From Desulfovibrio sp. JC010 (GTDB taxonomy: Bacteria > Desulfobacterota > Desulfovibrionia > Desulfovibrionales > Desulfovibrionaceae), in contig NZ_VOIQ01000011.1 in assembly GCF_010470675.1 (NCBI RefSeq), positions 1 through 58,862 on the forward strand: DNA of 58,862 bases. The letters run 5' to 3'. The translations under genes and the position numbers were made by a program. Within the stretch, counting starts at the first letter, position 1. Each line of letters opens with the position of its first letter. The notes beneath the pieces were generated by a model. It did no database searches, was not told the origin of the DNA, and saw nothing but the letters and a program-made list of their open reading frames with translations. Positions 8,428 to 56,514 of the stretch are shown here, piece after piece.

Positions 8428-8504
8428 GCCTCCGGCGGCCCTCCGGGGGCCAAAGAACCCTTTTGGAAAAGGGTTCTCTGGACTCTCCTAAAACTTTTAA
8501 TAGT
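8428..8504 (-). repeat. Dispersed repeat copy 1 (variant B, after folC)
   Basis: Begins GCCTCCGGCGGCCC 5 nt after the folC stop and continues with an AGAACCCTTTT / AAAAGGGTTCT hairpin, then GGACTCTCC and AAAACTTTTAATAG. Variant B shares its tail with copies 7 and 8. Strand here means the direction in which the GCCGGAGGC end is on the right. Confidence 0.85.
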
Positions 8505-8565
8505 TTAGTTCAGGAACTTACTTTTTTAATCAGGGTTTTAAGTTGTAATTTTATGAGGGTTTATT

Positions 8566-9963
8566 TTGTCTAATTTATTTAAGTATTTACCTTCTGTTGA
8601 TTCTGTCCTTACCCGTCTTGAAGACGAAGGGGTCATCGACGGATTGCCGAGGACCCTTTCCCGTGATCTGGTTAACGGCTTTCTTGATGTCTGCCGTGAG
8701 GAAATCAAGGGCGGGATCATTACCGAGGAAAAGCAGCTTTCCCCGGAAACACTTTTCCCGCGCCTGACCTGCCATGTGCGGGCCGGGGCGAAGCCGCATT
8801 TCCGACGGGTGCTCAATGCTACCGGGGTGGTGGTGCATACCAATCTCGGACGTTCCCTGCTGGCGGACAGCGCAGTTAAGGCTGTTACTGAGGCCTGTGC
8901 ATGTTATTCCAATCTTGAGTTTGACTTGGGGACCGGGGAGCGTGGCAGCCGTTACAGTCATGTGGAAAAGCTGATCTGCGAGATTACCGGGGCCGAGGCC
9001 GCACTGGTGGTTAACAACAACGCTTCGGCGGTGCTGATCACCCTTGAAACACTTGCCAAGGGGCGCGAGGCTATTGTTTCCCGCGGGCAGCTGGTGGAGA
9101 TTGGCGGATCGTTCCGTATTCCGGATGTGATGACCAAGAGCGGGGCATCCCTGCGTGAAGTAGGGGCCACCAACCGCACTCATCTGCATGATTACGAGAA
9201 TGCCATCAGCGAGGACACGGCCTTGCTCATGAAGGTGCATACTTCCAATTTCCGGGTCATCGGGTTCACCAAGGAAGTTTCCGGTGGCGAACTGGCCGAA
9301 CTGGGTCGCAAGCATGATCTCCCGGTCTATGAGGATCTCGGCAGCGGAAACCTGACTAATTTTTCCGGGCTGGGACTTATGCGCGAGCCTACAGTTCAGG
9401 AAGTCGTAGCTGAAGATGTGGACGTGGTTTCATTTTCCGGTGACAAAGTGCTGGGTGGACCGCAGGCGGGGATTATTGTCGGTAAAAAGAAATTTATCGA
9501 TATGATTAAGAAGAATCCGCTCAACCGCGCGGTACGCATCGACAAAATGACTCTCGCAGCCCTTGAAGCGACCCTGCGTCTCTACCTTGACCCCGAAACC
9601 GCCAAGCGCGAAGTTCCCACTGTGCGCATGATCACCGAGCAACCTGAAAATCTCAAAAAGCAGGCCCAGTCCCTTGCCCGCACATTGCGTCGTGAGCTTG
9701 GCGAGTCCGCAAAGATCGGCGTACGCGAGGGAGTCTCCCGCGTAGGCGGCGGGGCGTTCCCGGAGCAGGATTTAAAGACTTTTCTGGTAACCGTTATTCC
9801 GGGTGGAAAAGTTACGGTTGAAGAATTAAAAGAATGTCTTCTTTCAACCGAACCGCCGCTGGTAGGTAGGATTGAAGAAGATGCATTCTGCCTAGATCCA
9901 CGGACCCTGACCCGCGAAGAATACAAACTCTGCGCAGAAGCTATCTCACAGGTATTAAAGTAA
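8566..9963 (+). CDS. selA: L-seryl-tRNA(Sec) selenium transferase
   Basis: A 465-residue PLP enzyme that converts seryl-tRNA(Sec) to selenocysteinyl-tRNA(Sec) using selenophosphate. An N-terminal tRNA-binding domain is followed by RRVLNATGVVVHTNLGR (about 84-100), the AALVVNNNASAV loop, the VEIGGSFRIPDV region, and the PLP lysine K294 in SFSGDK. The length matches the family. The start is TTG at 8566, behind GAGGG. It is followed by an M18 aminopeptidase and selB, giving a split sel locus. selC and selD are not in the window. Confidence 0.95.
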   Translation: MSNLFKYLPSVDSVLTRLEDEGVIDGLPRTLSRDLVNGFLDVCREEIKGGIITEEKQLSPETLFPRLTCHVRAGAKPHFRRVLNATGVVVHTNLGRSLLADSAVKAVTEACACYSNLEFDLGTGERGSRYSHVEKLICEITGAEAALVVNNNASAVLITLETLAKGREAIVSRGQLVEIGGSFRIPDVMTKSGASLREVGATNRTHLHDYENAISEDTALLMKVHTSNFRVIGFTKEVSGGELAELGRKHDLPVYEDLGSGNLTNFSGLGLMREPTVQEVVAEDVDVVSFSGDKVLGGPQAGIIVGKKKFIDMIKKNPLNRAVRIDKMTLAALEATLRLYLDPETAKREVPTVRMITEQPENLKKQAQSLARTLRRELGESAKIGVREGVSRVGGGAFPEQDLKTFLVTVIPGGKVTVEELKECLLSTEPPLVGRIEEDAFCLDPRTLTREEYKLCAEAISQVLK

Positions 9964-9980
9964 AAATTAACAATAACATC

Positions 9981-10063
9981 GGCGAAGCCTAATAAAAGTT
10001 TTTGGGATTCTTAAACCCTTTTTTTAAAAAGGGTTTAAGTCCCCCGGAAGGGCCGCCGGAGGC
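9981..10063 (+). repeat. Dispersed repeat copy 2 (before M18 aminopeptidase)
   Basis: Runs from GGCGAAGCC, through GGGATTCTTAAACCC and a T/A-rich hairpin, to GCCGCCGGAGGC, ending 10 nt before the ATG at 10074. Its GGAGG (10058-10062) is the only plausible Shine-Dalgarno for that gene. Confidence 0.88.
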
Positions 10064-10073
10064 ATCTATAATT

Positions 10074-11462
10074 ATGAATAAATCTCTTGAACATGAACCG
10101 AAAAGCTGCTGGGAAATTTTCAAAGACGAAGAGCACCAGCAGAAAATGGATGACCTTGCAGCCCGGTACATCGACTTCCTGACCCGCTGCAAAACCGAGC
10201 GCGAGACCATCAAATACGTTGAAGACAGACTGCGCGAAGAGGGTTTCGAAGATTATCTCGGCGCGGACCAGTGCTTCCGTTCTTTCCGTGATAAGACAAT
10301 TTTTATTGCCCGTAAGGGTAAAAATCCGCTCTCGCAGGGCTTCAGACTGGTGGGCGCACATGCCGATACCCCGCGTATCGATCTTAAGCAGCGTCCGCTG
10401 TACGAAGACCTCGGTATGTCCATGGCCAAGACCCATTACTATGGCGGTATCCGCAAATACCAGTGGCTGGCACGGCCTCTTTCTTTGCACGGCGTGGTGG
10501 TCAAGGCTGACGGCACCAAGGTTGATGTTGTCATCGGCGAGGATGCGGATGATCCGGTCCTTTCCATCCTCGACCTGCTGCCGCACCTTGCCCACAAGCA
10601 GGTGGCCAAGAGTGTCACTGATGCTTTTGAAGCTGAAAAACTGAATGTCCTCATGGGGCACTCTTTGTCTTTCTCTAAGGACGAAGAGGACGAGGGTGAT
10701 GCTGACGGCAAACCTTCCGTAAAACGCAAGGTACTGGAGCTGCTCAACGAGAAATATGATATCGTTGAAGAAGACCTTTTCAGCGCGGAAATGCATATTG
10801 TTCCTGCAGGTCCGGCCCGTTACGTAGGTTTGGATAAGTCCATTGTGGGCGGATACGGACAGGATGACCGTTCCTGCGTGTTTCTCGCACTGGAAGCATT
10901 TCTCAACGCTCCTGAACCTGAGCATGCCCAGATAGTACTTTTCTACGATAAGGAAGAGATCGGTTCCGAAGGTTCTACCGGAGCCAAGTCGCTCTTTTTC
11001 GAATACTGCCTCGAAGACCTCATCGAAGCATGGGAACCCAACGCCAAGATGTCCCGGGTGATGATGGCCGGGAAGGCCCTGTCCACTGACGTTCACGCGG
11101 CAATCGATCCCGATTATCAGGACGCGCACGAGAAGCTTAATTCCGCTTATCTCGGTTACGGTCCCAGTTTCAGCAAATTTACCGGACATCGCGGTAAGGT
11201 TGGTGCCAATGATGCCCACCCTGAATTCGTGGCCTGGCTGCGCAATATCCTAAATGAAGCCGGAGTGCCGTGGCAGATGGCTGAACTCGGCAAGGTCGAT
11301 CTCGGCGGGGGCGGCACTGTTGCCAAGTTTCTCGCCCTCTACGGCATGGATGTAATTGATTTCGGTCCTCCGGTGCTTTCCATGCACAGCCCGTTCGAAC
11401 TGACCAGTAAAGCTGATCTTTATGCTACTGAACTGGCTTTCAGGACATTTTTGAAAAATTAA
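10074..11462 (+). CDS. M18 family aminopeptidase
   Basis: A 462-residue zinc aminopeptidase of the M18 (aspartyl aminopeptidase / ApeB) family, cytosolic, releasing N-terminal residues from peptides. Metal-site and catalytic motifs in order: GAHADTPR (H96), GYGQDDRS, FYDKEEIGSEG, STDVHAAIDP and VLSMHSPFEL near the C-terminus. The start is set at the ATG at 10074. A longer open frame from 10002 would translate the dispersed repeat itself (MGFLNPF...), which recurs before unrelated genes, so it is rejected. It lies between selA and selB; no functional link to selenocysteine is evident. Confidence 0.92.
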   Translation: MNKSLEHEPKSCWEIFKDEEHQQKMDDLAARYIDFLTRCKTERETIKYVEDRLREEGFEDYLGADQCFRSFRDKTIFIARKGKNPLSQGFRLVGAHADTPRIDLKQRPLYEDLGMSMAKTHYYGGIRKYQWLARPLSLHGVVVKADGTKVDVVIGEDADDPVLSILDLLPHLAHKQVAKSVTDAFEAEKLNVLMGHSLSFSKDEEDEGDADGKPSVKRKVLELLNEKYDIVEEDLFSAEMHIVPAGPARYVGLDKSIVGGYGQDDRSCVFLALEAFLNAPEPEHAQIVLFYDKEEIGSEGSTGAKSLFFEYCLEDLIEAWEPNAKMSRVMMAGKALSTDVHAAIDPDYQDAHEKLNSAYLGYGPSFSKFTGHRGKVGANDAHPEFVAWLRNILNEAGVPWQMAELGKVDLGGGGTVAKFLALYGMDVIDFGPPVLSMHSPFELTSKADLYATELAFRTFLKN

Positions 11463-11485
11463 ATATAGCTTTCGAATACAAAGCC

Positions 11486-11567
11486 GGCGAAGCCTTAATA
11501 AAAGGTTTTGGGATTCTTAAACCCTTTTGCAAAAGGATTTAAGGCTCCCGGCAGGGTCGCCGAAGGC
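11486..11567 (+). repeat. Dispersed repeat copy 3 (before selB)
   Basis: GGCGAAGCC to GCCGAAGGC, with the internal AAACCCTTTTGCAAAAGG hairpin. It ends 12 nt before the selB ATG. Its end is GAAGG rather than GGAGG; selB has a separate AAAGGATA site. Confidence 0.88.
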
Positions 11568-11579
11568 AAAAGGATAATT

Positions 11580-13487
11580 ATGCCCGTAGTTATGGGAACA
11601 GCCGGTCATATTGACCATGGTAAGACCAGCCTGATTAAAGCATTGACCGGAACGGACTGCGACCGTCTGGCCGAGGAAAAGAAACGCGGCATCACCATTG
11701 AGCTGGGTTTTGCCAGCCTTGATCTTGGCGGTGATGAACAGCTGAGCATCATTGATGTTCCGGGCCATGAGAAGTTTGTGAAAAACATGGTTGCCGGGGC
11801 AGCGGGTATTGATTTCGTGCTGCTGGTTATCGCCGCTGATGAAGGGGTGATGCCCCAGACCCGCGAACATCTGGAAATCTGCACTTTGCTGGGCATTGAG
11901 AAAGGTTTCGTGGTTCTGACCAAGGCCGATACGGTCGATGAAGAGTGGCTGGAGATGGTGCAGGAAGATGTGCGTGAATTCCTTGCGCCGAGCTTTCTGG
12001 CTGAAGCACCTGTCCATGCTGTTTCCTCGCATACCGGACAGGGCCTGGATGAATTGCGTAGCGAGATTGGGAAGTTCATGAAAGGTTTCGCCCCGAAACG
12101 CAGGACTGACCTCGCTCGTTTGCCTGTGGACCGCGTGTTCACCATGAAAGGGCACGGCACGGTGGTGACCGGGACTCTCATTTCCGGGCAGCTTTCCGTG
12201 GGCGATGATGTGTTGCTGTATCCTAAATTGACTGAGACCAAGGTGCGCAGCCTGCAATCACATGGCTCGTCTGTAGAGACCGCTCCGGCAGGGCGCAGGA
12301 CCGCCATCAACCTGCACGGCGTTGAGGTTGAAGATATCGAGCGCGGTGAAGTGCTGGGCCGTCCGGGAACACTCTTTCCGTCTACTGTCTGGGATGTGGA
12401 GCTGACCTGTCTGCCGTCTTCCCCCAAAAGCTTGAAGCACCGCAAGGAAATCCATTTCCATCATGGCTCCAAGGAAGTAATGGCCAAGGTCTATTTTCTT
12501 GATCGTGAAAAGCTGGAAAAGGGCGAACGGGCGGTTTGCCAGATTCGTTTTGAAAAGCCCATGACCGGGGTTTACGGGGATCGTGTTGTCTTGCGTTCGT
12601 TTTCCCCGCTGCGGACAATCGCCGGGGGCAGCATCATCAACCCGCTGGGCCGCAAGGTGAAACGTTTTTCCGATGATGTGAAGCGGCTGGAATCACTTAT
12701 TGGAGCCGAGCCGGAAGAACTGGTCCTTACCCAGCTTGATCTGGCCGGTCGGGCCGGGCTTACTTTTCAGGAGCTTTCCATCCTGAGCAATGTGGCCTCC
12801 AAGCCTTTGGAAAAAATGCTCCAGACCATGGGCGGGCAGCAGAAGATTTTTCTGTATGACAAGGAAACCCGCAGCTATGTTTCCGGCACTCACTATGAGA
12901 ATCTGGTGCAGGGACTGCTGGATCACCTTGCTGAATTTCACAAGAATGAGCCCATGAAGCCGGGCGTCTCGCGTGGTGAGATCGGCTCCACCTACGGCAA
13001 GGGATTGCCGGAAAAGCTTTTCCATACAATTGTGGAACGTCTGCTTAAGAAAAATGATATCATGGCTGCACAGGAGATTCTGCATCTGCCCGGACACAAG
13101 GTTTCTCTTGCTTCGGATCAGCAGAAGCTGCGTGACATCCTGATGAGTACATACGAGAAAGGCGGGCTGACTCCGCCGAATCTGAAGGATGTGCTTGATC
13201 CGCTTGATCTGGTTTTCAAAGAAGCCGCGCCTGTTTACAAGCTCTTGCAGGATGAAGGGTTGCTGGTCAGGATCAAGGATGACATGTATTTTGCTAAATC
13301 CGCAGTGGACGGCTTGCAGAAGATTCTTGAGGGGTATTTCGCTGAAAACCAAGAACTCGGCCCGCAGGATTTTAAAACACTGGTCGGCCTGTCGCGTAAA
13401 TTTTCCATTCCATTGCTTGAGTATATGGATAAGGAAAAGATCACCATTCGAGTCGGTGATAAGCGCAGGTTGCGTAAGCAGAGTTAA
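11580..13487 (+). CDS. selB: Selenocysteine-specific elongation factor
   Basis: A 635-residue GTPase that delivers selenocysteyl-tRNA(Sec) to UGA codons followed by a SECIS hairpin. GTPase motifs: G1 GHIDHGKT (9-16), RGITIELGF (switch I), DVPGHEKF (G3) and LTKAD (G4). EF-Tu-like domains 2 and 3 follow, and the C-terminal third carries the winged helices that bind SECIS RNA (for example KFSIPLLEYMDKEKITIRVGDKRRL at the end). The ATG at 11580 follows AAAGGATAAT; the longer frame from 11508 lies in the repeat and is rejected. A bidirectional terminator follows. Confidence 0.95.
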   Translation: MPVVMGTAGHIDHGKTSLIKALTGTDCDRLAEEKKRGITIELGFASLDLGGDEQLSIIDVPGHEKFVKNMVAGAAGIDFVLLVIAADEGVMPQTREHLEICTLLGIEKGFVVLTKADTVDEEWLEMVQEDVREFLAPSFLAEAPVHAVSSHTGQGLDELRSEIGKFMKGFAPKRRTDLARLPVDRVFTMKGHGTVVTGTLISGQLSVGDDVLLYPKLTETKVRSLQSHGSSVETAPAGRRTAINLHGVEVEDIERGEVLGRPGTLFPSTVWDVELTCLPSSPKSLKHRKEIHFHHGSKEVMAKVYFLDREKLEKGERAVCQIRFEKPMTGVYGDRVVLRSFSPLRTIAGGSIINPLGRKVKRFSDDVKRLESLIGAEPEELVLTQLDLAGRAGLTFQELSILSNVASKPLEKMLQTMGGQQKIFLYDKETRSYVSGTHYENLVQGLLDHLAEFHKNEPMKPGVSRGEIGSTYGKGLPEKLFHTIVERLLKKNDIMAAQEILHLPGHKVSLASDQQKLRDILMSTYEKGGLTPPNLKDVLDPLDLVFKEAAPVYKLLQDEGLLVRIKDDMYFAKSAVDGLQKILEGYFAENQELGPQDFKTLVGLSRKFSIPLLEYMDKEKITIRVGDKRRLRKQS

Positions 13488-13495
13488 GATAAATT

Positions 13496-13532
13496 ATAAA
13501 GCCCGGATTCGTGAGAGTCCGGGCTTTTATTT
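13496..13532. terminator. Bidirectional terminator between selB and toxin gene
   Basis: AAAGCCCGGATTC (13498-13510) pairs with GAGTCCGGGCTTT, flanked by A-rich and T-rich runs, so it serves both converging transcripts. Confidence 0.85.
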
Positions 13533-13802
13533 TAACATGCGCATGCGTTCATGCAGAAAACGGATTATTTCAACTCGATTGTTTTTGATCCGGTAAACGC
13601 AGATAAAGGGCAGTTTCGGGATGATCAGTTCGCGGGTGCCTTCAACTGTACCGTCACGTCCAAGTTGAGGAAATGAGTCTAATGATTCGGTTGCCTTTTT
13701 TATCTGTGCTGCAATTCGGGATACAATTTCAGGATTTTCCCGTTTTATGTATTCCAGTTGTCCTTGCAGGTCTCTTTGCGCAGGTTTAGTCCACAACGGC
13801 AC
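13527..13802 (-). CDS. ParE/RelE-superfamily toxin
   Basis: A 91-residue protein of the type II toxin superfamily. It shows an N-terminal WTKPAQRDLQGQLEYI helix, DSFPQLGRDGTVEGTRELII (the usual ParE 'P.lGr...G.Re' stretch) and a C-terminal YRI...VEIIRFLHERM strand-helix with the terminal arginine/histidine region. ParE members poison gyrase and RelE members cut mRNA; the sequence is closer to ParE, but this is not certain. The start is GTG and shares one base with the antitoxin stop (TAGTG), so translation is coupled. Confidence 0.9.
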   Translation of the reverse strand: MPLWTKPAQRDLQGQLEYIKRENPEIVSRIAAQIKKATESLDSFPQLGRDGTVEGTRELIIPKLPFICVYRIKNNRVEIIRFLHERMRMLK

Positions 13803-14038
13803 TATGCACCGAACCTGCTGAAGATCTCATTAACTTCCTCTTCAGAAGCGAATTCACCTTTGTCGGCAGCCTCCAGTCCTTCCTGAACCTGCTCTTTAAA
13901 CCATTGCTGGTATTCAATAAAATCCTTGATTGCTTTATTGAGTACCCAGTTACGGCTTCTGCCCATGTCCTTGGCTATTTTATCAAGGGAAGACAGGGTG
14001 TCCGGGTCGGTGCGAAAGCTGGTGCTTGATTGCGGCAT
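13802..14038 (-). CDS. Ribbon-helix-helix antitoxin
   Basis: A 78-residue CopG/ParD-like antitoxin that binds the toxin and represses the operon. The N-terminal RHH is visible: a TSFRTDP strand, a LSSLDKIAKDMGRSRNWVLNKAIKDFI helix-turn-helix (from about residue 14), then an acidic, probably disordered toxin-binding tail (EAADKGEFASEEEVNEIF). It lies directly upstream of the toxin gene with a 1-nt overlap. The module sits between two near-identical terminators. Confidence 0.9.
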   Translation of the reverse strand: MPQSSTSFRTDPDTLSSLDKIAKDMGRSRNWVLNKAIKDFIEYQQWFKEQVQEGLEAADKGEFASEEEVNEIFSRFGA

Positions 14039-14117
14039 TATTCACCTCAAGTATGTTTGATATCGTTTGTAGTCACCATGAATATTAGTGATTAGATTTG
14101 AGTATGGCAAGAAATTT

Positions 14118-14152
14118 TAAAAGCCCGGATCGTATGAGTCCGGTTTTTTTTT
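14118..14152 (+). terminator. Terminator-like hairpin with T9
   Basis: AAAAGCCCGGAT pairs imperfectly with GTCCGG, followed by a run of nine T. No rightward gene ends nearby, so it may be left over from rearrangement. Its stem closely resembles those at 13498 and 14804. Confidence 0.6.
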
Positions 14153-14237
14153 GCGTCTTTTGCTGGCTGGGGCTGCTGTGGGGTGATATAGTCAGGTAGG
14201 TCTGTGAAATAAACTTCAACCTGACAGGAGCTTGGGT

Positions 14238-14774
14238 ATGACAAGGAGATTATATCCGTTATTGGCCGGAATATTGTTTGTGTTTATGATGAGTTTTGTT
14301 TTTGTCCCCTCTGCCGGAGCCGGGGATGCGGAAGCTATATTGAAATTAAAAAATGAAATTATTCAAAAGCAGAATAAGGGCAGGCTCGGAGTGCAGGAAT
14401 TTGCTCTGTGCACTAAGGTTTTGAATTATGCTTCATTTTATCCCAAGCAGGATAATAAAATTAAGCGCGGCACAAAGCTCCTTTTATATTACGAACCAAT
14501 CAACTGGTTTACGTCCACACAGCAGGGCAGGTATGAATTCTATCTTACGCAGGATGTCATTCTTGAATCGGCAGCAGGGGAAGTTCTTTTCAAGCGTGAT
14601 GGGCTTTTGAGCATGCATTACAATACCGGTAAGCCCATCCTTGATATTTATATGACCAATGATTTCAGTCTCGGAAATCTTCCGGCCGGGAAGTATCGTT
14701 ATATTATTGTATTGCATGATATGATCAGCGGGCAGCAGTTTAAGCGGGGGATTCAGTTTGAATTAGTGGAGTAG
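14238..14774 (+). CDS. Secreted protein of unknown function
   Basis: A 178-residue protein with a clear signal peptide: positive MTRRLYP, hydrophobic LLAGILFVFMMSFVFV, and a cleavage site near PSAGAG-DA. There is no lipobox. The mature part is about 150 residues of alternating strands (RYEFYLTQDVIL, LLSMHYNTGKPILDIYMTN, GKYRYIIVLHD), likely a beta-sandwich exported to the periplasm. One Cys remains. The ATG at 14238 has AGGAG 7 nt upstream; TTG at 14232 is too close to it. I do not recognise the family. Confidence 0.75.
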   Translation: MTRRLYPLLAGILFVFMMSFVFVPSAGAGDAEAILKLKNEIIQKQNKGRLGVQEFALCTKVLNYASFYPKQDNKIKRGTKLLLYYEPINWFTSTQQGRYEFYLTQDVILESAAGEVLFKRDGLLSMHYNTGKPILDIYMTNDFSLGNLPAGKYRYIIVLHDMISGQQFKRGIQFELVE

Positions 14775-14803
14775 GTAAAATTCAGTCAGGACTGGAAAAT
14801 ACA

Positions 14804-14840
14804 AAAGCCCGGATTCATGTGAATCCGGGCTTTAAAAATA
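14804..14840. terminator. Bidirectional terminator
   Basis: AAAGCCCGGATTC (14804-14816) and GAATCCGGGCTTT (14821-14833) form a perfect 13-bp stem with an ATGT loop. It serves the secreted-protein gene and the leftward tRNA-His pair. Confidence 0.85.
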
Positions 14841-14916
14841 TGGGGTGAGTGAGGGGACTTGAACCCCCGGCCACTTGGGCCACAACCAAGTGCTCTACCA
14901 ACTGAGCTACACCCAC
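14841..14916 (-). tRNA. tRNA-His (GTG), copy 2 of tandem pair
   Basis: The minus strand gives acceptor GTGGGTG / CACTCAC with the extra -1 G opposite discriminator C typical of tRNA-His, D-arm AGCTCAGTTGGTAGAGC, anticodon loop TTGTGGC (GTG), T-loop GGTTCAAGTCC and encoded CCA. It is identical to the copy 121 bp away. Confidence 0.95.
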
Positions 14917-14961
14917 CTTAAAAAAGGGGTCAGGGACTATCTGATCCCTAGATATGTCAAA

Positions 14962-15037
14962 TGGGGTGAGTGAGGGGACTTGAACCCCCGGCCACTTGGG
15001 CCACAACCAAGTGCTCTACCAACTGAGCTACACCCAC
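14962..15037 (-). tRNA. tRNA-His (GTG), copy 1 of tandem pair
   Basis: Same sequence as the tRNA at 14841-14916, offset by 121 bp and transcribed first. The 45-bp spacer (14917-14961) holds no further gene. Confidence 0.95.
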
Positions 15038-15365
15038 CGCGTGTGAGAGGTGTGTTTAACTAAGCTGGGTGCGATGGTCAAGAAGTTTTTGAAAAAAAGG
15101 CTATTTTTTTTGAGTTCTGCAAATCACGCAAGTAAAAGAGATGATTAACTTGTTTATAAAACCGTGTTTTGATCTTAATAAGAAAATAGGTTAAGCGCGG
15201 TCTTCACTAATGAGTTATTTTGTGCCACAAACATTTTGTTCTTTTGTTACTGAAAGCAATCAGGGGTCGAGGGTAGGTATTGCCTTATTCACCCGGCTGC
15301 CGGGACGTTAATTTCAAGCTGTTGGCGTCGGTGGCTTATTACCTGATAAATATAAGGATTTTGAG
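15038..15365. other. 328-bp region upstream of murA
   Basis: No gene is supported. It must contain the leftward tRNA-His promoter and the murA promoter. The only notable structure is CCCGGC-T-GCCGGG (15292-15304), whose significance is unclear. Confidence 0.5.
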
Positions 15366-16619
15366 ATGGATAAATTAGTTATTGAAGGTGGAGTTTCCCT
15401 TAACGGCCCGATCAGGGTCAGTGGTTCCAAAAACGCAGCCCTGCCTATCCTGCTGGCCTGTATTCTTCCGGAAGGTCCGGTTTGTCTCGATAATGTTCCG
15501 CGTCTTCGGGATATTCATACCACGCTCAAGCTGCTTAATATCCTCGGTTGTGAGACTTCTTTTGAAGGTAACAGGGTGTGCAGCGAAGTGAAGGACCTTA
15601 AGGTGGAAGCACCTTACGATCTGGTTAAGACCATGCGTGCTTCGGTGCTCTGCTTGGGTCCCCTGCTGGCTCTGAAGGGGGAGGCCAAGGTTGCGCTTCC
15701 CGGTGGCTGTGCTATCGGTGCACGTCCGGTGGATCTGCACCTGACCGCTTTTGAGCAGATGGGTGCTACTTTTGATCTTGATTCAGGTTATATTCATGGA
15801 AAGTGCGACAAGCTCAAAGGCGCGCACATCCATTTTGATTTCCCCACTGTGGGCGGCACCGAGAACGTGCTCATGGCCGCAGCTTTGGCCGAAGGTGAGA
15901 CCATTATTGAAAACGCGGCCCGTGAGCCTGAAGTTGTTGATCTTGCCAATTTCCTTATTGCCTGCGGAGCGAAAATTTCCGGTCACGGCACCAGCATTAT
16001 TACCGTGCAGGGCGTTACTTCCCTTAAAGGCGGCGACTACAAAGTCATGCCCGACCGCATTGAGGCCGGGACTTACATGGTTGCTGCCGCAATGACTGAC
16101 GGTGAATTGCTGATTCAGGACTGTCCCTTTCAGGAGCTGGAATCCGTTGTTTACAAGATGCGCAAGATGGGCATCTCCCTTGAGGAAGAAGAGGGCGGAG
16201 TGCGCGTGCGCCGGGCCAACGGTCTTATCTCCGGGGTGGATATCACCACGCAGCCGTACCCCGGCTTTCCTACAGATATGCAGGCTCAGCTCATGACCCT
16301 GATGTGTCTCTCCAACGGTGCCGGTACCATTGAGGAAAAGATTTTCGAAAACCGTTTCATGCACGTGCAGGAACTGGTGCGTATGGGCGCGAATATCAAG
16401 CTAAAGGGCCGTACCGCCATGATTCGCGGCGTTGAGAAGCTTACCGGTGCTCCGGTTATGGCTTCGGACCTGCGGGCCAGTGCTTCCCTCGTTGTAGCCG
16501 GACTGGCTGCTTCCGGGCGGACTGATGTTCAGCGTATTTATCATCTTGATCGCGGCTACGAGAAGCTGGAAGATAAGCTTTCCGCTGTGGGCGCAAGGGT
16601 CTGGCGCGAGAAAGAGTAA
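15366..16619 (+). CDS. murA: UDP-N-acetylglucosamine 1-carboxyvinyltransferase
   Basis: A 417-residue cytosolic enzyme that transfers enolpyruvate from PEP to UDP-GlcNAc, the first committed step of peptidoglycan synthesis and the target of fosfomycin. The N-terminal SGSKNAALP (K22-N23 type) binds substrate. The catalytic loop [14 protein letters not shown] contains C115, the residue alkylated by fosfomycin, so sensitivity is expected. [14 protein letters not shown] and AGTYMVAAA are conserved. AAGGATT precedes the ATG. comEC starts 15 bp downstream, so they probably form an operon. Confidence 0.96.
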
Positions 16620-16634
16620 CCGGCCTTTCTGGTT

Positions 16635-23430: not shown

Positions 23431-23499
23431 GGCGAAGCCAAACTAAAAGGTTTTGGGATTCTTAAACCCTTTTGCAAAAGGGTTTAAGCCGCCGGAGGC
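23431..23499 (+). repeat. Dispersed repeat copy 4 (at slyX stop)
   Basis: GGCGAAGCC through the AAACCCTTTTGCAAAAGGGTTT hairpin to GCCGCCGGAGGC. It is a short form lacking the GGCTCCCGGCAGG block. Its last base is shared with the slyX stop codon (CTA on the plus strand). Confidence 0.9.
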
Positions 23500-27907: not shown

Positions 27908-27989
27908 GGCGAAGCCCTATTAAAAGGTTTTGGGATTCTTAAACCCTTTTGCAAAAGGGTTTAAGGCTCCCGGCAGGGCCGCCGGAGGC
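27908..27989 (+). repeat. Dispersed repeat copy 5 (before purF)
   Basis: Near-consensus copy: GGCGAAGCC, TTTTGGGATTC, hairpin TTAAACCCTTTTGCAAAAGG, CTCCCGGCAGGGCC, GCCGGAGGC. It ends 6 nt before the purF ATG. GGAGG (27984-27988) is 7 nt from the start codon and is its Shine-Dalgarno. Confidence 0.92.
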
Positions 27990-32373: not shown

Positions 32374-32441
32374 GCCTTCGGCGACCCTGCCGGGGGCCTT
32401 AAACCCTTTTGCAAAAGGGTTTAAGAATCCCAAAACCTTTT
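32374..32441 (-). repeat. Dispersed repeat copy 6 (after PBP1A gene)
   Basis: Begins GCCTTCGGCGACCCTGCCGGGGGCC 6 nt after the stop, then the TTAAACCCTTTTGCAAAAGG hairpin and AATCCCAAAACCTTTT. It is followed directly by a strong terminator. Confidence 0.9.
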
Positions 32442-32447
32442 GTTAAT

Positions 32448-32490
32448 TAAAAAGGCTGCTTCCAATTCAGGAAGCAGCCTTTTAATTTTT
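32448..32490. terminator. Bidirectional terminator between PBP1A gene and pyrE
   Basis: AAAGGCTGCTTCC (32451-32463) and GGAAGCAGCCTTT (32470-32482), with T-rich sequence on both sides. Each converging transcript first passes a dispersed repeat (copies 6 and 7). Confidence 0.88.
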
Positions 32491-32500
32491 GTACGGCTAA

Positions 32501-32578
32501 AACTATTAAAAGTTTTTGAAGAGTCCAGAGAAACTTTTTACAAAAAGTTTCTTTGGCCCTCGGAGAGCCGCCGGAGGC
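32501..32578 (+). repeat. Dispersed repeat copy 7 (variant B, at pyrE stop)
   Basis: AACTATTAAAAGTTTTTGAAGAGTCC-type start, hairpin AGAAACTTTTT / AAAAAGTTTCT, then TTGGCCCTCGGAGA and GCCGCCGGAGGC. The last base is shared with the pyrE stop codon. Confidence 0.9.
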
Positions 32579-39886: not shown

Positions 39887-39890
39887 GTTG

Positions 39891-39972
39891 CGAAGCTTAA
39901 TAAAAGTTTTTGAAGAGTCCAGAGAAACTTTTTTCAAAAAGTTTCTTTGGCCCTCGGAGAGCCGCCGGAGGC
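39891..39972 (+). repeat. Dispersed repeat copy 8 (variant B, after U32 gene)
   Basis: CGAAGCTTAATAAAAGTTTTTG, GAGTCC, hairpin AGAAACTTTTT / AAAAAGTTTCT, TTGGCCCTCGGAGA, GCCGCCGGAGGC. It ends 5 nt before the stop codon of the leftward U32 gene and is almost identical to copy 7. Confidence 0.9.
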
Positions 39973-43721: not shown

Positions 43722-43811
43722 GAAATTAGTTTTTTAGATTTTATTTAGAATAATCTGGAGAAAGTGCTTGCCAATCAGTTCTGATTTAGCTAGACACTTT
43801 CTCACCCAAGC

Positions 43812-43901
43812 GGAGAGGTGTCCGAGTCCGGCTTAAGGAGCACGCCTGGAAAGCGTGTATAGTTAACGCTATCGGAGGTTCAAATCCTCTCCTCTCCGCC
43901 A
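43812..43901 (+). tRNA. tRNA-Ser (GGA), copy 1
   Basis: A 90-nt class II tRNA: acceptor GGAGAGG / CCTCTCC with encoded CCA, anticodon stem CACGC-GCGTG around CTGGAAA (anticodon GGA), long variable arm (TATAGTTAACGCTATC) and T-loop GGTTCAAATCC. It is identical to the copy at 45966-46055. Confidence 0.95.
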
Positions 43902-43914
43902 GCTTGAATTTAGT

Positions 43915-43948
43915 AAGCCCCTTGCAACGTTGTTGCGAGGGGCTTTTT
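43915..43948 (+). terminator. Terminator of tRNA-Ser copy 1
   Basis: AAGCCCCTTGCAAC pairs with GTTGCGAGGGGCTT, followed by TTTT. Near-identical to the hairpin after copy 2 (46069). Confidence 0.85.
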
Positions 43949-43994
43949 CGTGGTTGGTTAATTTGTCTGCTTAATGTGTTTTGGTTAGCACTTG

Positions 43995-45795: not shown

Positions 45796-45965
45796 TGTGC
45801 AGCTCCTTAAGGTTTGTATGGATTGTAGCGTATTTTAAAGGATATTTCTAGTAGTTATGTTTTTGCTCTCTTACGAAGTTAAGATGGCTTGTGAATATAT
45901 TTCAAAATAATTGAAAAAATGCTTGCCAAGCGTGGCTGATTTAGCTAGATACATTTCTCCCAAGC

Positions 45966-46055
45966 GGAGAGGTGTCCGAGTCCGGCTTAAGGAGCACGCC
46001 TGGAAAGCGTGTATAGTTAACGCTATCGGAGGTTCAAATCCTCTCCTCTCCGCCA
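45966..46055 (+). tRNA. tRNA-Ser (GGA), copy 2
   Basis: Identical over 90 nt to the tRNA at 43812-43901, including CCA. The flanks are also alike: upstream TTAGCTAGA and TCCCAAGC elements, and downstream AGCTTGAATTTAGTAAGC. Confidence 0.95.
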
Positions 46056-46068
46056 GCTTGAATTTAGT

Positions 46069-46102
46069 AAGCCCCTTGCAACGATGTTGTGAGGGGCTTT
46101 TT
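46069..46102 (+). terminator. Terminator of tRNA-Ser copy 2
   Basis: AAGCCCCTTGCAACG-type stem with TTGTGAGGGGCTT, followed by TTTT. Confidence 0.82.
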
Positions 46103-46180
46103 CGTGTCGGTTTGATTTCTTTTCAGCTGGAATGCAATTTATCCTTGCATTTGCCTGTGTTCTGATTACTCATTTTCCTT

Positions 46181-47521: not shown

Positions 47522-47543
47522 TCTGGTTTTAATTGGAAAAAGT

Positions 47544-48355: not shown

Positions 48356-48427
48356 CAGATGGTATTGCCATCTTATTCAAAGTTTTCGATTCAGGTCAAA
48401 TGTATAGTAGGAAAGCGGTAATGTTTT

Positions 48428-50659: not shown

Positions 50660-50670
50660 TGTGTTAAATA

Positions 50671-50707
50671 TGAAGAAAGCTCCCGATGGAGAATCCAAAG
50701 GGAGCTT
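50671..50707 (-). terminator. Terminator after DUF1640-like gene
   Basis: AAGCTCCC (50677-50684) and GGGAGCTT (50700-50707), followed on the minus strand by TCTTC. It lies 22 bp past that gene and just before recQ. Confidence 0.6.
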
Positions 50708-50728
50708 GGTGTTTAGAGTGTGCTCGCA

Positions 50729-51016
50729 TTAGAGTAGTTTCACTAGGGCAGCTATTGATCCTCCTTGAACAATAAGAAGGCCAGCCATCCATTTAATAAT
50801 TTCTGATTTGGCATCTCTGACTTCAGCTTTCAGTTCTCCACGAACTGTGGCGATTTCTACCTGTAGTTCCGCTTTCATGGCCATCAGGTCTGCTCTTGTA
50901 GCAAGTTCTTGCTTGTATTGTTCGTCCTGCCTTTCCAGAACATGAGCAATAACTTCGGCAGCCTCTTTGCCTACAGCTTCTTTTAGCTTTTCTGAGTCAT
51001 CAAAAAGTAATGCCAT
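50729..51016 (-). CDS. DUF1640-like coiled-coil membrane protein
   Basis: A 95-residue protein: helical N-terminus, a coiled-coil heptad region (about 30-70, LATRADLMAMKAELQVEIATV) and a C-terminal hydrophobic helix (IIKWMAGLLIVQGGSIAALVKLL). This order matches DUF1640 (the bacterial relatives of the mitochondrial MCUR1/CCDC90 proteins). Function unknown. It stands between recQ and map on the same strand. Confidence 0.75.
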   Translation of the reverse strand: MALLFDDSEKLKEAVGKEAAEVIAHVLERQDEQYKQELATRADLMAMKAELQVEIATVRGELKAEVRDAKSEIIKWMAGLLIVQGGSIAALVKLL

Positions 51017-51085
51017 TTCAAGTACCTCTGTCTATATAAATAGGCATAAAGTTATATTACGTCAAGAATCGTAAGTAAATAAATC

Positions 51086-51865
51086 CTACATCGCCCAGCC
51101 TTCGCCGTTCTCCCCGCAGGTAAGCACCTGTGATCCGGTGGAGGTAACAGCGATGGTGTGCTCGAAGTGGGCGGAAGGCTTGCCGTCCTTAGTGACGATG
51201 GTCCAGTGGTCTTTGAGGGTTTCGGTGGTCTTTACACCAGCGTTGATCATGGGTTCCACGGCAATGACCAGACCCTGTTTGAGCTTGAAATCCTTGACCA
51301 GCCTGCTGTGGTAGTTGGGGACCTGCGGGGATTCCCAGAGTCCTTCACCGATACCGTGGCCCACCAGCGATTCAACAACGGAAAAGCCTTCGTTGCGGGC
51401 GTATTTGGACATTTCCTTGGCGATCTTGCTCCATTTTACGCCGGGCTTGATGCGTTTAATGGCAATACGCAGGCATTCCTCGGTCACGTCCATGAGTTTT
51501 CTTTTCTCATCATCAATTTCACCGATGGCATGGGTTACGGCGCAGTCTGAGCACCAGCCGTTCAAGCGCACACCGATATCGATGGACAGGATATCTCCAT
51601 TCTCCAGTTTACGGGCGGAGGGGATGCCGTGAACGATAGCTTCGTTGATGGACATGCAGCAGCCGGCAGGAAAAGGAACCTTGCCCGGAACACCTTTGAA
51701 AAGCGGAGTGGCTCCGTTGGAGGTGATATATTTCTCCACTTCGGCATTGATTGCTTCGGTGGTTACACCTGCTTCGCACATTTCTTTAGCCACCATGTGG
51801 GCTTTGTGGAGCAGAATACCTGCTTCGCGCATGAGGTCGATTTGTTTTTTATTCTTTATAATCAT
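51086..51865 (-). CDS. map: Methionine aminopeptidase type I
   Basis: A 259-residue metalloenzyme removing the N-terminal Met of new proteins. Metal-ligand motifs: DIGVRLNGWCSDCAVTH (Asp pair), LVGHGIGEGLWESPQVPN (His), IAVEPMI (Glu) and FEHTIAVT (Glu). The substrate histidine is in EAIVHGIPS. Length is normal for type I. The Cys-rich spots (CC near MSINE) are of no known role. Confidence 0.95.
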   Translation of the reverse strand: MIIKNKKQIDLMREAGILLHKAHMVAKEMCEAGVTTEAINAEVEKYITSNGATPLFKGVPGKVPFPAGCCMSINEAIVHGIPSARKLENGDILSIDIGVRLNGWCSDCAVTHAIGEIDDEKRKLMDVTEECLRIAIKRIKPGVKWSKIAKEMSKYARNEGFSVVESLVGHGIGEGLWESPQVPNYHSRLVKDFKLKQGLVIAVEPMINAGVKTTETLKDHWTIVTKDGKPSAHFEHTIAVTSTGSQVLTCGENGEGWAM

Positions 51866-51987
51866 TGGGATGACTCCAGAAAATGTTTTCGTGACCGGGA
51901 CAGGCTACTCTTAAATATATGGAAGTCAACAGGAGAAGAGCACGTTCTTCGGGTGGAGCACTTACTTCGGTGAAAAAACAAACTTAA

Positions 51988-53833
<1,846 letters not shown>

Positions 53834-53837
<4 letters not shown>

Positions 53838-54238
53838 TGAGTGAGCACAGGGCCGATGAACATAAGTCCGATGATTTCGGTCAGACCGTAGGCTCCAAAG
53901 AGCAGCGCAAAATTCGTGCGGAGCAGAAAGGGACCGTGGGCGCGTGGTCGGCTTTCGGGGCCATGGGGGCCGTTGGTTGGCTGGTGGCAGTGCCGATAGT
54001 GCTGGGCAGTCTGCTGGGAGTCTGGATGGACCATAATTGGCCTGCGAAAATCAACTGGACCATGACCATGCTCGGAGCCGGGCTGGCTGTAGGCTGTCTC
54101 TTCGCCGGAATATGGATGAACCGCGAGAAGAACAAGATCATCAGGGAACGAGAGGAATGGGAGCAGCAGGATTTGAAATCTAAGGACTTAGAAACGAAGG
54201 AACCAGAGTTGAAGGATAAAAACGATGATCATCAGTAA
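53834..54238 (+). CDS. atpQ: N-ATPase AtpQ (AtpI-like) subunit
   Basis: A 134-residue membrane protein with two helices (about 41-63, WSAFGAMGAVGWLVAVPIVLG, and 75-94) and charged ends. It fits the AtpI-like protein called AtpQ that is specific to N-ATPase operons and may act in assembly or Mg2+/Na+ handling. It starts with ATGATG overlapping the atpC stop, and its end overlaps atpR by 14 nt. Confidence 0.85.
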
Positions 54239-54542
54239 TTATATAATAACCATTGCCGCTTTCGGTATCGGCCTGCTGCTCTCGGCAGTACATTTCGGCG
54301 GGCTGTGGCTGACAGTGCGTATTCTGCCCCGTTGCGAAAGGCCGAGGCTCTTTTTCTGGTCCAGTTATCTGGGACGTTACGGGATCACTCTATGGGGGTT
54401 CGCACAGGTTATGAGCTACGGTCCGTTACCGTTTGTGTCGGCGTTTCTCGGCTTTTATTTGCTCAGGACTTACGCATTGGCAAACCATTGCGGCATGGGC
54501 GTGCTGGAATTTGTGAAGGTAAAGAGGTCTGAATGGAAATAA
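54225..54542 (+). CDS. atpR: N-ATPase AtpR subunit
   Basis: A 105-residue membrane protein with three helices (about 4-30, 40-62 region, 68-85). AtpR is found only in N-ATPase operons; a conserved Arg between helices is thought to interact with the c ring, and this copy has RGI-type R (YLGRYGITLWG). Function is not firmly known. It overlaps atpB by 10 nt. Confidence 0.85.
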   Translation: MIISNYIITIAAFGIGLLLSAVHFGGLWLTVRILPRCERPRLFFWSSYLGRYGITLWGFAQVMSYGPLPFVSAFLGFYLLRTYALANHCGMGVLEFVKVKRSEWK

Positions 54543-55201
54543 GCCCGGACCATATCGTTTATTTCAGCTTCGGTTTTTTCAAGCTGAATGCCACCATTGT
54601 TTACACATGGCTGGTTATGGTTCTGCTTGCGGGATTTTCCTGGCTGGTGACCCGCCGGGTTACATCGTCCGCGCAAATTTCAGATCAGCAGAATTTGCTG
54701 GAAGTACTGGTGGGCGGGCTGCTTGTTCAGATCAAAGACGCTACCAATCAGCAGCCTGAAAAGTTCCTGCCGCTGCTCGGAAGTCTGTTCATTTTCATTT
54801 TAGTTTCCAATCTGCTTTCCGTAGTGCCGGGATTCAAGCCGCCCACGGGATCGCTTTCCACCACCACAGCCTTCAGTCTGATCGTATTTTTCGCGGTTCC
54901 TTATTACGGCATCAAGCAGAACGGTCTGCTCAATTATCTCAAAAGTTACGTGCAGCCTTCGCCGTTTATGCTGCCGTTTAATATAATCGGTGAGGTCAGC
55001 CGTACTTTTGCGCTGGCAGTGCGTTTGTTCGGAAATATTCTCAGCGGAACCATGATGGGGGCGATATTACTGGTGATCATGCCGCTCTTCGTTCCCGTAA
55101 TCATGCAGATGCTGGGGCTGCTTATCGGAGTTGTGCAGGCTTATATTTTTACCGTGCTCGCGGCGGTATTTATTGCTGCGGGTCTGGAAGTGCATGGGTA
55201 A
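54533..55201 (+). CDS. atpB: N-ATPase a subunit
   Basis: A 222-residue membrane subunit forming the ion half-channels. It has the hallmark arginine R164 in AVRLFGNILSG, and about five to six helices. LGSLFIFILVSNLLSVVPGFKPPTG in the middle and VQAYIFTVLAAVFI at the end are family motifs. The stop codon runs straight into dispersed repeat copy 9, and atpE follows 192 bp later. Confidence 0.94.
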   Translation: MEISPDHIVYFSFGFFKLNATIVYTWLVMVLLAGFSWLVTRRVTSSAQISDQQNLLEVLVGGLLVQIKDATNQQPEKFLPLLGSLFIFILVSNLLSVVPGFKPPTGSLSTTTAFSLIVFFAVPYYGIKQNGLLNYLKSYVQPSPFMLPFNIIGEVSRTFALAVRLFGNILSGTMMGAILLVIMPLFVPVIMQMLGLLIGVVQAYIFTVLAAVFIAAGLEVHG

Positions 55202-55368
55202 GCCTCCGGCGGCCCTGCCGGGGGCCTTAAACCCTTTTTATTGCGCCCCTTCCTGGGGCTTACCCCTTCGGGGCGGTGCCTTTCTGGCACCGGGCAAATC
55301 CGCTTTCCTGCGGATTTGTGTCAAAAGGGTTTAAGAATCCCAAAACCTTTTATTAAGGCTTCGCCTAA
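55202..55368 (-). repeat. Dispersed repeat copy 9 with a four-hairpin insert, between atpB and atpE
   Basis: GCCTCCGGCGGCCCTGCCGG starts directly after the atpB stop, then TTAAACCCTTTT. About 85 bp (about 55239-55322) are inserted where the loop of the usual hairpin lies, after which AAAAGGGTTTAAGAATCC and the normal tail resume. The insert holds four stems: 55245-55259, 55263-55273, GGTGCC/GGCACC at 55275-55291, and CAAATCCGC/GCGGATTTG at 55295-55318. Confidence 0.88.
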
Positions 55369-55393
55369 TTGAATTAAATAAAGGGGGTTCTCA

Positions 55394-55672
55394 ATGGAAA
55401 CTCTTGGTTGGATTGCATTCGGGTCGATAATTGCGGCCGGTCTTTGCATGGGTATCGGAGCCATTGGTCCGGCGATTGGTGAAGGGATGGCTCTTTCGCG
55501 GGCACTCAGTTCCATTGCCCAGCAGCCGGATGAGACCAATACTATTGTGAAATTCCTGTTTGTGGGTATGGCTATGGTCGAATCCACGGCTATTTATTGC
55601 TTTGTGTTGGCCATGATTCTGCTTTTTGCCAATCCGTTCTGGTCCTATTTTATTGAAAAGGCCGGAGGCTGA
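55394..55672 (+). CDS. atpE: N-ATPase c subunit (predicted Na+-binding)
   Basis: A 92-residue double-helix hairpin of the c ring. Helix 1 has the GIGAIGPAIGEG motif with an extra glutamate E30; helix 2 has E63-S64-T65 and Y68. In Na+-translocating rings, a Q or E in helix 1 and ES(T)-x-x-Y in helix 2 coordinate Na+. These residues predict Na+ transport, and the E30 plus E63 pair is characteristic of N-ATPases. The repeat and insert before it may set its abundance. A GGGGG-type site (AAAGGGGGTT) precedes the ATG. Confidence 0.94.
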   Translation: METLGWIAFGSIIAAGLCMGIGAIGPAIGEGMALSRALSSIAQQPDETNTIVKFLFVGMAMVESTAIYCFVLAMILLFANPFWSYFIEKAGG

Positions 55673-55674
55673 TA

Positions 55675-56406
55675 ATGCTGCTGGACTGGTTCACGATCAT
55701 TGCTCAGATCGTGAATTTCTTCGTGCTTATCGCGCTGCTCAGGATGTTTCTGTACAGGCCCATTGTTACGGCTATGCAGGAACGCAAGGAGCGTGTTGCG
55801 CAGGAAACGCGGGCATTGCGTGAGGCGCGAGATAAAGCGGAAATTATTAATGTCGAGCTTCGCCGTAAGCGCGAGGAGCTTGAGAACCGCGAATCTGAAG
55901 TCATGGCCGAAATTCATGCCGAGGCCGAACGATGGCGCAATCAGGCTATGGAATCCGCTCGTGGTGAGATAGAAACCATGCGCAGGGAATGGCTGGCCGC
56001 GCTGGAGCGGGAAAAGGAAAGCGTTGCACTTAACCTGCGCAAAAAGCTTACCCACGAAGTTTCCGCCACAGCCGCACGCATTGTGCAGGACCTTTCCGGC
56101 AGTGATCTGGAGCAGCTGATTCTGAGCGGATTCATGCAGCGGATAGATGCAGAGGCACGGGATGTTGATTGCGGTAATTCTGAAATTCTGATCCGTACAG
56201 GGTTTGAACATACTGATTTACAAGAACAAAAACTTAAACAATTACTTGAGGAATTGTTCCCGGTTCAAAATGAACGGATATTTTCAAACGATCCAAGATT
56301 GGGCCTCGGTATTGAGCTAATTGCCGGAGATCGCAAGTGGGAATGGAATTTAAGTTCATATGTAACAGAGCTTGAGAGTAAAATTTTAACAGAAATAAAT
56401 AGCTAA
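55675..56406 (+). CDS. atpF: N-ATPase b subunit
   Basis: A 243-residue peripheral-stalk subunit: an N-terminal helix (about 4-25, WFTIIAQIVNFFVLIALLRMF), then a long charged coiled coil (about 35-140), and a C-terminal region ending in IELIAGDRKWEWNLSSYVTELESKI that resembles the delta-type tail. N-ATPase operons lack a separate delta gene, and this longer b subunit may replace it. It follows atpE by 2 bp. Confidence 0.9.
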   Translation: MLLDWFTIIAQIVNFFVLIALLRMFLYRPIVTAMQERKERVAQETRALREARDKAEIINVELRRKREELENRESEVMAEIHAEAERWRNQAMESARGEIETMRREWLAALEREKESVALNLRKKLTHEVSATAARIVQDLSGSDLEQLILSGFMQRIDAEARDVDCGNSEILIRTGFEHTDLQEQKLKQLLEELFPVQNERIFSNDPRLGLGIELIAGDRKWEWNLSSYVTELESKILTEINS

Positions 56407-56434
56407 ATTTGCCGCACACTCTTTCAGACGAAGC

Positions 56435-56514
56435 GGCGAAGCCTTAATAAAAAGTTTTGGGATTCTTAAACCCTTTTTCAAAAGGGTTTAAGCCCTCGGA
56501 GAGCCGCCGGAGGC
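56435..56514 (+). repeat. Dispersed repeat copy 10 (before atpA)
   Basis: GGCGAAGCC, TTTTGGGATTC, hairpin TTAAACCCTTTT / AAAAGGGTTTAA, CCCTCGGAGA, GCCGCCGGAGGC. GGAGG (56509-56513) ends 4 nt before the atpA ATG and is its Shine-Dalgarno. Confidence 0.92.

Follow-up and report, generated by a model that had tools for sequence, protein, structure and literature searches.

The contig NZ_VOIQ01000011.1 of Desulfovibrio sp. JC010, whose 58,862 nucleotides (nt) were analysed as a whole and are referred to here as the window, carries ten copies of a short dispersed hairpin repeat placed at the edges of genes. All ten copies proposed by the first-pass annotation were recovered, by direct reading of the sequence and as matches to a covariance model (R1), and its variants A and B (copies 1, 7 and 8 being B) are as it described them; the further cores C, C2 and D were found elsewhere in the genome. 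Judged from its sequence, we classify the element as a REP-like, non-autonomous dispersed hairpin repeat whose triplex core resembles that of BoxC/PIT; among the 30 genomes searched, it occurs in a single genus. The copies, and the parts of copy 5, are the following (window coordinates):

8428–8511, minus strand: copy 1, core type B; GC-rich end 5 nt past the stop of a Mur-ligase-like gene.
9981–10063, plus strand: copy 2, core type A, in the gap between selA and an M18 peptidase gene; GC-rich end 10 nt before the start.
11486–11567, plus strand: copy 3, core type A, in the gap between the M18 peptidase gene and selB; GC-rich end 12 nt before the start.
23431–23499, plus strand: copy 4, short type A without the GC-rich insert; one-base overlap with the slyX stop.
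27908–27989, plus strand: copy 5, core type A; GC-rich end 6 nt before an ATG, with GGAGG at the Shine-Dalgarno position.
27908–27916, plus strand: left mini-hairpin of copy 5, GGC-GAA-GCC, with a GNA loop.
27928–27937, plus strand: putative third-strand segment L of copy 5 (TTTTGGGATT).
27938–27965, plus strand: main hairpin of copy 5 (arm R 27938–27950, loop 27951–27952, arm R' 27953–27965).
27981–27989, plus strand: right mini-hairpin of copy 5, GCC-GGA-GGC, with a GNA loop; it holds GGAGG.
32374–32455, minus strand: copy 6, type A; 6 nt past the PBP gene stop, left member of an outward-facing pair.
32450–32483, plus strand: terminator-like hairpin separating copies 6 and 7, with its first bases shared with the R1 span of copy 6.
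32495–32578, plus strand: copy 7, type B; one-base overlap with the stop of the convergent phosphoribosyltransferase gene, right member of the pair.
39889–39972, plus strand: copy 8, core type B; the stop of a U32 peptidase gene is 5 nt away.
55202–55365, minus strand: copy 9, type A, its loop containing a nested stretch of small hairpins, about 80 nt in all; directly past the ATPase a-subunit stop.
56435–56514, plus strand: copy 10, type A; 3 nt ahead of the start of the ATPase alpha-subunit gene.

In every one of these copies the GC-rich end, GGAGGC, lies at a gene boundary, at the distances originally claimed: 3, 6, 10 and 12 nt before a start in the four start-facing copies (10, 5, 2 and 3, respectively), and from −1 to 6 nt from a stop in the six stop-facing ones (1, 4, 6, 7, 8 and 9). 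The value for copy 5 was read from the sequence, the automatic caller having put that start 63 nt away.

The model R1 was built from an alignment of nine of the ten window copies, copy 9 being excluded because of its insert, and the genome-wide search with it yielded at least 150 matches (the best 150 of 1651 candidates were scored; weakest E = 1.4e-13). Copies were then counted in a sample of the same genome consisting of the window, C1:1–400k, C3:1–200k and C4:1–200k (858,862 bases, picked irrespective of copies). The 129 R1 rows obtained there were reduced to 100 after leaving out 29 opposite-strand echoes of the same palindromes; taking out two more echoes and counting the two halves of copy 9 as one gave 97 copies. 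This corresponds to about one copy per 9 kb and extrapolates to approximately 500 copies in the 4.39-Mb genome. Genes were taken from a simple coding-score caller, in which starts are less certain than stops.

None of the 97 copies in the sample lies inside a called gene. The GC-rich end was nearer to the boundary it faces than the AT-rich end was to its own in 81 of 96 copies (p = 4e-12 under a null of 50%, in which each copy is flipped in place; one copy had no left gene). Of the GC-rich ends facing a stop, 44 of 68 lay no more than 8 nt from it, versus 2 of 60 for the AT-rich end. Copies occupy 28 of 59 convergent, 52 of 232 tandem and only 2 of 100 divergent intergenic regions, the totals referring to regions of at least 100 nt and the occupied ones being counted without that cut. 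In tandem regions 26 copies face starts and 34 face stops; a possible start lies no more than 12 nt from 14 of 28 start-facing copies, with the uncertainty that starts carry. The same polarity was observed in five sampled genomes of relatives, where the GC-rich end was the nearer one in 20 of 25 elements (p = 0.004, the position of the AT-rich end being approximate; 27 elements were considered, of which two were set aside, one for lying in a called gene and the other for want of a flanking gene). In addition, neighbouring R1 matches less than about 300 nt apart were arranged AT-rich end to AT-rich end, with the GC-rich ends outward, in 34 of 34 close pairs from three genomes (14/14 in our own sample, 9/9 in the relative G016 and 11/11 in G003). 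These results bear out the earlier proposal that the orientation is not expected by chance, and the random orientation and distance that would have spoken against it were not seen in the sample. The stronger wording, that the end always faces a gene boundary, holds for the ten window copies and not genome-wide, as 24 of the 68 stop-facing copies have their GC-rich end more than 8 nt from the stop.

These larger distances are due in part to a second small hairpin (GCGC-loop-GCGC), present within 60 nt in 18 of 97 right flanks. The loops of these flank hairpins (GAA, GTA, GATA, GGTA, GACA and the like) have G first and A last in 16 of 18 cases. We also noted that this second module, located between the GC-rich end and the stop, reads gaaatc...AAAAGCGC-loop-GCGC (e.g., L042 from 8709 onward), and that from the gene side it reads GCGC-loop-GCGC-TTTT, the shape of a minimal terminator.

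Two other explanations of the positions can be considered at this point. If insertion occurred anywhere and copies in genes and promoters were purged, the short remaining gaps could make the survivors look anchored; the lack of copies inside called genes and the nearly copy-free divergent, promoter-containing regions are what such purging would leave. We regard it as very unlikely, because purging leaves the polarity unexplained, that is, the contrast between the two ends near stops and the uniformly outward close pairs. The second explanation is a role at the RNA level, in which the copies would be selected hairpins of the 3' (and 5') untranslated regions acting on translation termination or mRNA decay, like E. 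coli REPs within 15 nt of a stop. This we hold to be doubtful, though it deserves some weight: the proximity of the GC-rich end to stops and the near absence of copies from divergent regions agree with it, several convergent gaps have paired copies between the stop and a terminator-like hairpin, and E. coli REPs less than 16 nt from a stop are described as down-regulating translation in the passages of PMC12306157 cited here. Against it, in tandem regions starts are faced nearly as often as stops.

The convergent pairs of our own sample allowed us to consider whether the copies are themselves transcription terminators. By eye, five of six such pairs enclose a separate terminator-like hairpin (that of the window pair, 32450–32483, was also found by a scan), so that paired copies bracket the non-coding stretch between stop and terminator. 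That the copies act as terminators is scarcely probable. They do place a strong hairpin in 3' untranslated regions, and in one convergent gap (C1, 171 kb) a pair of copies in G000 has a terminator-like hairpin as its counterpart in G016; nevertheless, besides the separate hairpins just mentioned, the main stem has no directly following T run, copies 9 and 10 sit within an ATPase operon, and PIT elements had no terminator activity according to the part of PMC4666352 on which we draw.

Most copies share a common layout, consisting of an NGC-GAA-GCN mini-hairpin, an A/T spacer, the segment L, the main hairpin R/R', an optional GC-rich insert and a GCC-GRA-GGC mini-hairpin. The ends, NGCGAAGCN on the left and GCCGRAGGC on the right, both form three-base-pair mini-hairpins with a GNA loop on the strand ending in GGAGGC. 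On the left, both inner pairs are present in 72 of 97 copies, with the loop GAA in 68 of these 72; the outer pair is G-C in 54, T-A in 7 and A-T in 5, A/C (10) and T/T (8) being the commonest among the rest. The right end is fully paired in 87 of 97 copies, its loop being GGA in 66 and GAA in 19. We know of no comparable stability rule for the complementary T..C loops. GNA and GNNA loops closed by at least two G-C pairs, in turn, are described as extraordinarily stable DNA mini-hairpins in the cited portion of PMC4686876. For these two reasons, the strand ending in GGAGGC was taken as the folding strand. The main hairpin R/R' is of several types: A, TTAAACCC; B, CCAGAGAAC or CCAGAGAAAC; C, CTGGGGAAGGGGAAAC; C2, CCAGAGGGGGAAACCC; and D, CCAAAGGGG or CTTAAGGGG. 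Regarding the insert of copy 9 (window 55202–55365), a related stretch of about 80 nt with several small hairpins occupies the same loop position in a second copy, at L061 6025–6173; by eye, the letters differ and the pairing looks kept, CCCC-GAA-GGGG being common to both.

The segment L, 5' of the main hairpin, mirrors arm R. To score this likeness, 124 hairpin elements were considered, five without a recognised centre were dropped (including a G016 TTCT case), and 106 unique L/R sets were scored. With the code A>A/T, T>T, G>G, C>G/C, a score of 0.713 was obtained for the own L, compared with 0.480 for swapped and 0.299 for shuffled L; on average, 4.3% of the other Ls scored better than the own L and 22% tied with it. 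Because this code had been chosen after inspecting the data, all 256 single-letter maps were scanned, and the best of them was A>A, C>G, G>G, T>T, both in the raw sets and when balanced by family (65 distinct sets); the second-best map was A>T, C>G, G>G, T>T. Permutation of L within families gave p = 0.0005 for B and p = 0.0005–0.001 for C, and the four families jointly gave p = 0.0005, the floor of 2000 permutations. The lengths of the T runs in L and R were correlated (rho 0.60; 45 of 65 sets parsed), and the G and A tracts in the few parsed B, C and C2 sets mostly shift together. Joint changes were also observed in single cases: in G016 and G010, L changes from TTTT to TTCT as R goes from CTTTT to (C/T)TCTT and R' from AAAAG to AAGAG (the G016 case lies outside the scores), and in G000 and G003, L changes from GGGATT to GGGGTT with TTAAACCC to TTAGCCC in R. 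A third segment that fits its hairpin by a triplet code, as in intrastrand triplex repeats in the PIT/ITxF sense, was thus found through the map scan and the B and C permutations, with A and D weak.

Folded back on R, the third strand is antiparallel to R and parallel to R'. G on a G of the R' strand is canonical in the parallel orientation. With the motifs given in the cited passages of PMC4666352, the other canonical triplets of a strand folded in this way are A or T on an A of the R strand, T on an A of the R' strand, C+ on a G of the R' strand and, in the antiparallel orientation, G on G-C. The canonical triplets expected for a folded-back L correspond to the map that was found, which leads to the triplex reading of the strand ending in GGAGGC; several of them would be non-canonical if the complementary strand were the one that folds. 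We know of no replication error that produces mirror repeats, and of no proteins that read mirror symmetry. Since purine-motif triplexes do not form in RNA, as stated in the same part of PMC4666352, the triplex was taken as DNA. The same statement weighs against the RNA-level role introduced above. So do the GNA loops and the triplex code, since the strand that they fit is antisense to the stop-facing gene. The earlier proposal of a role at mRNA ends is kept only in part: the strand-specific signs lie on the antisense strand, while start-facing copies often place GGAGG at the Shine-Dalgarno position.

Known repeats were compared with this element. The intrastrand triplex repeats BoxC, PIT and TM-ECO were reportedly described by Hoyne and Maher. 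They are treated by Holder et al. 2015 (PMC4666352), in whose cited passages they resemble the present repeat in being short, intergenic and present in many copies, in combining a hairpin and a third strand within one DNA strand, in differing strongly in number among close relatives, in having loci that vary by strain, and in occurring as inverted pairs. The third strand 5' of the hairpin corresponds here to their class I order, whereas TM-ECO belongs to class II. A difference from BoxC, PIT and TM-ECO is that, within the stem of types A and B, the purines pass from one strand to the other; moreover, the present repeat has mini-hairpin ends of its own and a polarity relative to genes, whereas the cited text reports TM-ECO without strand-orientation bias. 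The TM-ECO/BoxC consensus CCCTCNCCCN3-6GGGNGAGGGN3GGGNGAGGG had no exact match on either strand of the 859 kb, which rules out membership of TM-ECO.

REP, BIME and REPIN elements share with the repeat the intergenic location, the many copies, dimers with one end outward, the preference for convergent and tandem regions and the frequent proximity to stops (cited parts of PMC3733652 and PMC12306157), and all of these except the last were used as REP features and found here. The unit is about 70–85 nt long, compared with 20–40 nt as given in those parts, and, unlike those elements, it has no GTAG/CGTC end tag, no RAYT gene in its genome, exchangeable triplex-like cores and a GC-rich end that is also placed before starts. 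A GTAG/CGTC tag in either orientation was present within 10 nt of an end in 21 of 97 copies, a count without a chance baseline and short of what defines a REP. The repeat works like a REP and contains a PIT-type core, and it lacks the defining features of both REPs (tag and RAYT) and TM-ECO (consensus). Miniature inverted-repeat transposable elements (MITEs) are non-autonomous, short and dispersed. The repeat is like them in these respects and in folding as one hairpin; it differs from them in that its terminal inverted repeat is weak and imperfect by eye and in that no target-site duplication was found around the 97 copies. Integron attC sites act as a folded single strand. The repeat resembles them in this and in its placement after stop codons, but their core-site motifs were not seen in the copies by eye.

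The first-pass annotation had suggested a targeted mobile unit and a search for a REP-type (TnpA) transposase. The Y1/RAYT family (PF01797) had no match in the own genome, the control search being positive in E. coli and four others. It was also absent from 13 of 16 relatives, including the copy-rich G016, G010, G001, G009 and G015, and present in G002, G003 and G007. That the repeat is a REP/REPIN family mobilised by a RAYT (TnpA-REP) enzyme is accordingly quite unlikely, even though G003 and G007, which are copy-rich, have Y1_Tnp matches and the habits listed above are shared with such families (as described in part in PMC3733652): G002 has seven matches to the enzyme and no R1 match, and the characteristic GTAG/CGTC end tag is absent. 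A reverse transcriptase was rejected as partner, since none was found in the copy-rich G001, G003 and G009 and its presence did not track copy number.

Turnover among relatives was, in contrast to the enzyme search, on the side of mobility. Besides the own genome, 15 of the 16 relatives from the genus have R1 matches (E up to 1e-6), with 3 to at least 150 each; none was obtained in G002 or in any of 13 genomes of other genera. A comparison of homologous sites revealed that 33 of 38 C1 copies have a syntenic place in G016, of which about 20 are empty, 5 hold the same core, 4 another core and 4 remnants, three of which are a right end alone (script, with two sites judged by eye: 76040, a hairpin-less remnant, and 335208, a diverged type C copy). 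In G016, a short GCCTCCGGAGG-like stretch persists at the adjoining sites 297034/297148, which were counted as empty. The exchange of cores at one site may reflect gene conversion or repeated insertion. The many empty sites in G016 also argue against the RNA-level role. In the 240 nt examined at the PBP gene (copy 6), no copy adjoins the stop in any of 16 relatives; a different copy lies further downstream in one of them, G015. Thus, the proposal of a mobile unit agrees with the empty and filled sites and with copy numbers that differ widely within the genus, but its REP-type transposase is missing from the genome.

Two junctions of the ATPase operon illustrate this turnover. At the a–c junction (site of copy 9; seven relatives), G007, G016, G009 and G010 have only a stop, a Shine-Dalgarno sequence and a start, G003 has an outward pair, and no copy is recognised in the longer gaps of G001 and G011. 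At the b–alpha junction (site of copy 10), a copy is present in G007 and G016 and decayed in G010, none is recognised in G011, and in G003, G009 and G001 the GGAGGC end stands 3–4 nt before the ATG without the full hairpin. The retention of GGAGGC before the ATPase alpha ATG suggests that this end is used or retained there as a Shine-Dalgarno sequence, a position in which start-facing copies often place GGAGG; some other start-facing copies precede genes with a GGAG-like site of their own. The operon (window 52087–58044) starts with a beta-like subunit and has two copies, 9 and 10, inside; we take its gene order to be N-ATPase-like.

The best explanation as a whole, to which we assign a probability of about 0.5, is a single hairpin family with a plus-strand triplex fold, moved in trans or by template switching, with secondary effects on expression. 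The active form would be the strand ending in GGAGGC, as single-stranded DNA; both of its ends would fold as GNA mini-hairpins and L would fold into the groove of the R/R' hairpin, giving an intrastrand triplex. The folded strand could be copied or moved by an in-trans enzyme other than a Y1 (TnpA-REP) protein or, alternatively, by template switching at the replication fork together with gene conversion between copies. Gene edges, either the stretch from stop to terminator or the bases immediately ahead of a start, may be where landing is tolerated or targeted. Many start-facing copies would secondarily donate GGAGG as a Shine-Dalgarno sequence, one site having kept the end after losing the hairpin. 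More tentatively, and with the balance of probability somewhat on the other side, the family may be evolutionary evidence for a foldback, alternate-strand DNA triplex maintained in cells, in which case the triplex and the two GNA mini-hairpins would serve as the recognition structure for a single-strand mobility system whose insertions, at the border between coding and non-coding DNA, have a fixed polarity. Bacterial intrastrand triplex repeats have been known since BoxC/PIT, and selection of the three-stranded form itself is not indicated in the part of that literature cited here. The natural variants of one family permit a three-way covariation test of the triplex, and the empty and filled sites in sister species offer a route to the enzyme and its target. 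If the explanation holds, non-B DNA would be tied to gene-edge insertion and to the donation of ribosome-binding sites within a single genus.

Several observations weigh against this explanation. Regarding the strand, G.T mismatches in the stem outnumber A.C ones by 14 to 5 contexts (leaving out the fixed type-B wobble), which favours the plus strand weakly (p = 0.064), and the folding energies of the two strands are alike and do not separate them. According to the cited passages of PMC4666352, the BoxC/TM motifs of E. coli fold in vitro, but a stable triplex was not supported by what was observed in vivo. In the mirror code, family A alone gave p = 0.05–0.15 and family D p = 0.03–0.32, 8 of 64 sets fell in families too small for permutation, the matching of tracts has exceptions, and the permutations overstate independence because copies share descent. 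In the ends, a left inner pair is missing in 25 of 97 copies, and the left outer pair is A/C in 10 and T/T in 8. The position rule is broken by 15 of 96 copies, one of them a tie. As for movement, no mobilising enzyme was found in the searches for Y1 and reverse transcriptase, and the longest direct repeat flanking the 97 copies averages 4.21 nt, compared with 4.22 in shuffled pairs, so that a target duplication is absent. A replication-strand bias is expected of some movers of single-stranded DNA; the counts by strand were 74:47 in G016, 88:43 or 84:47 in G003 depending on the choice of arc, 52:45 in the own genome and 16:18 among its convergent copies, with gene orientation as a confounder. 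In these counts, G016 and G003 have an excess of copies with the G-rich strand as their plus strand, and the own convergent copies do not.

At the gathering score, Rfam recognised only five tRNAs in the window; plasmid records gave zero copies and viral contigs lacked the exact core, in searches that may omit near records. Among the papers listed in the literature search, judged by their titles and the beginnings of their abstracts, none describes the repeat; the 12-mer GCCTCCGGCGGC gave matches unrelated by title. The exact 34-nt core was carried by a sole named record, a Desulfovibrio sp. metagenome-assembled genome (the search may omit near relatives), which suggests a Desulfovibrio-like sulfate reducer as the host.

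Apart from the repeat, the window contains two stretches (43802–43964 and 45956–46118) that are 95% alike, lie about 2 kb apart and carry tRNA-Ser (gga) genes, with a minus-strand open reading frame of 455 amino acids between them. Two identical tandem tRNA-His genes, 121 nt from start to start, are located at 14841–15037.

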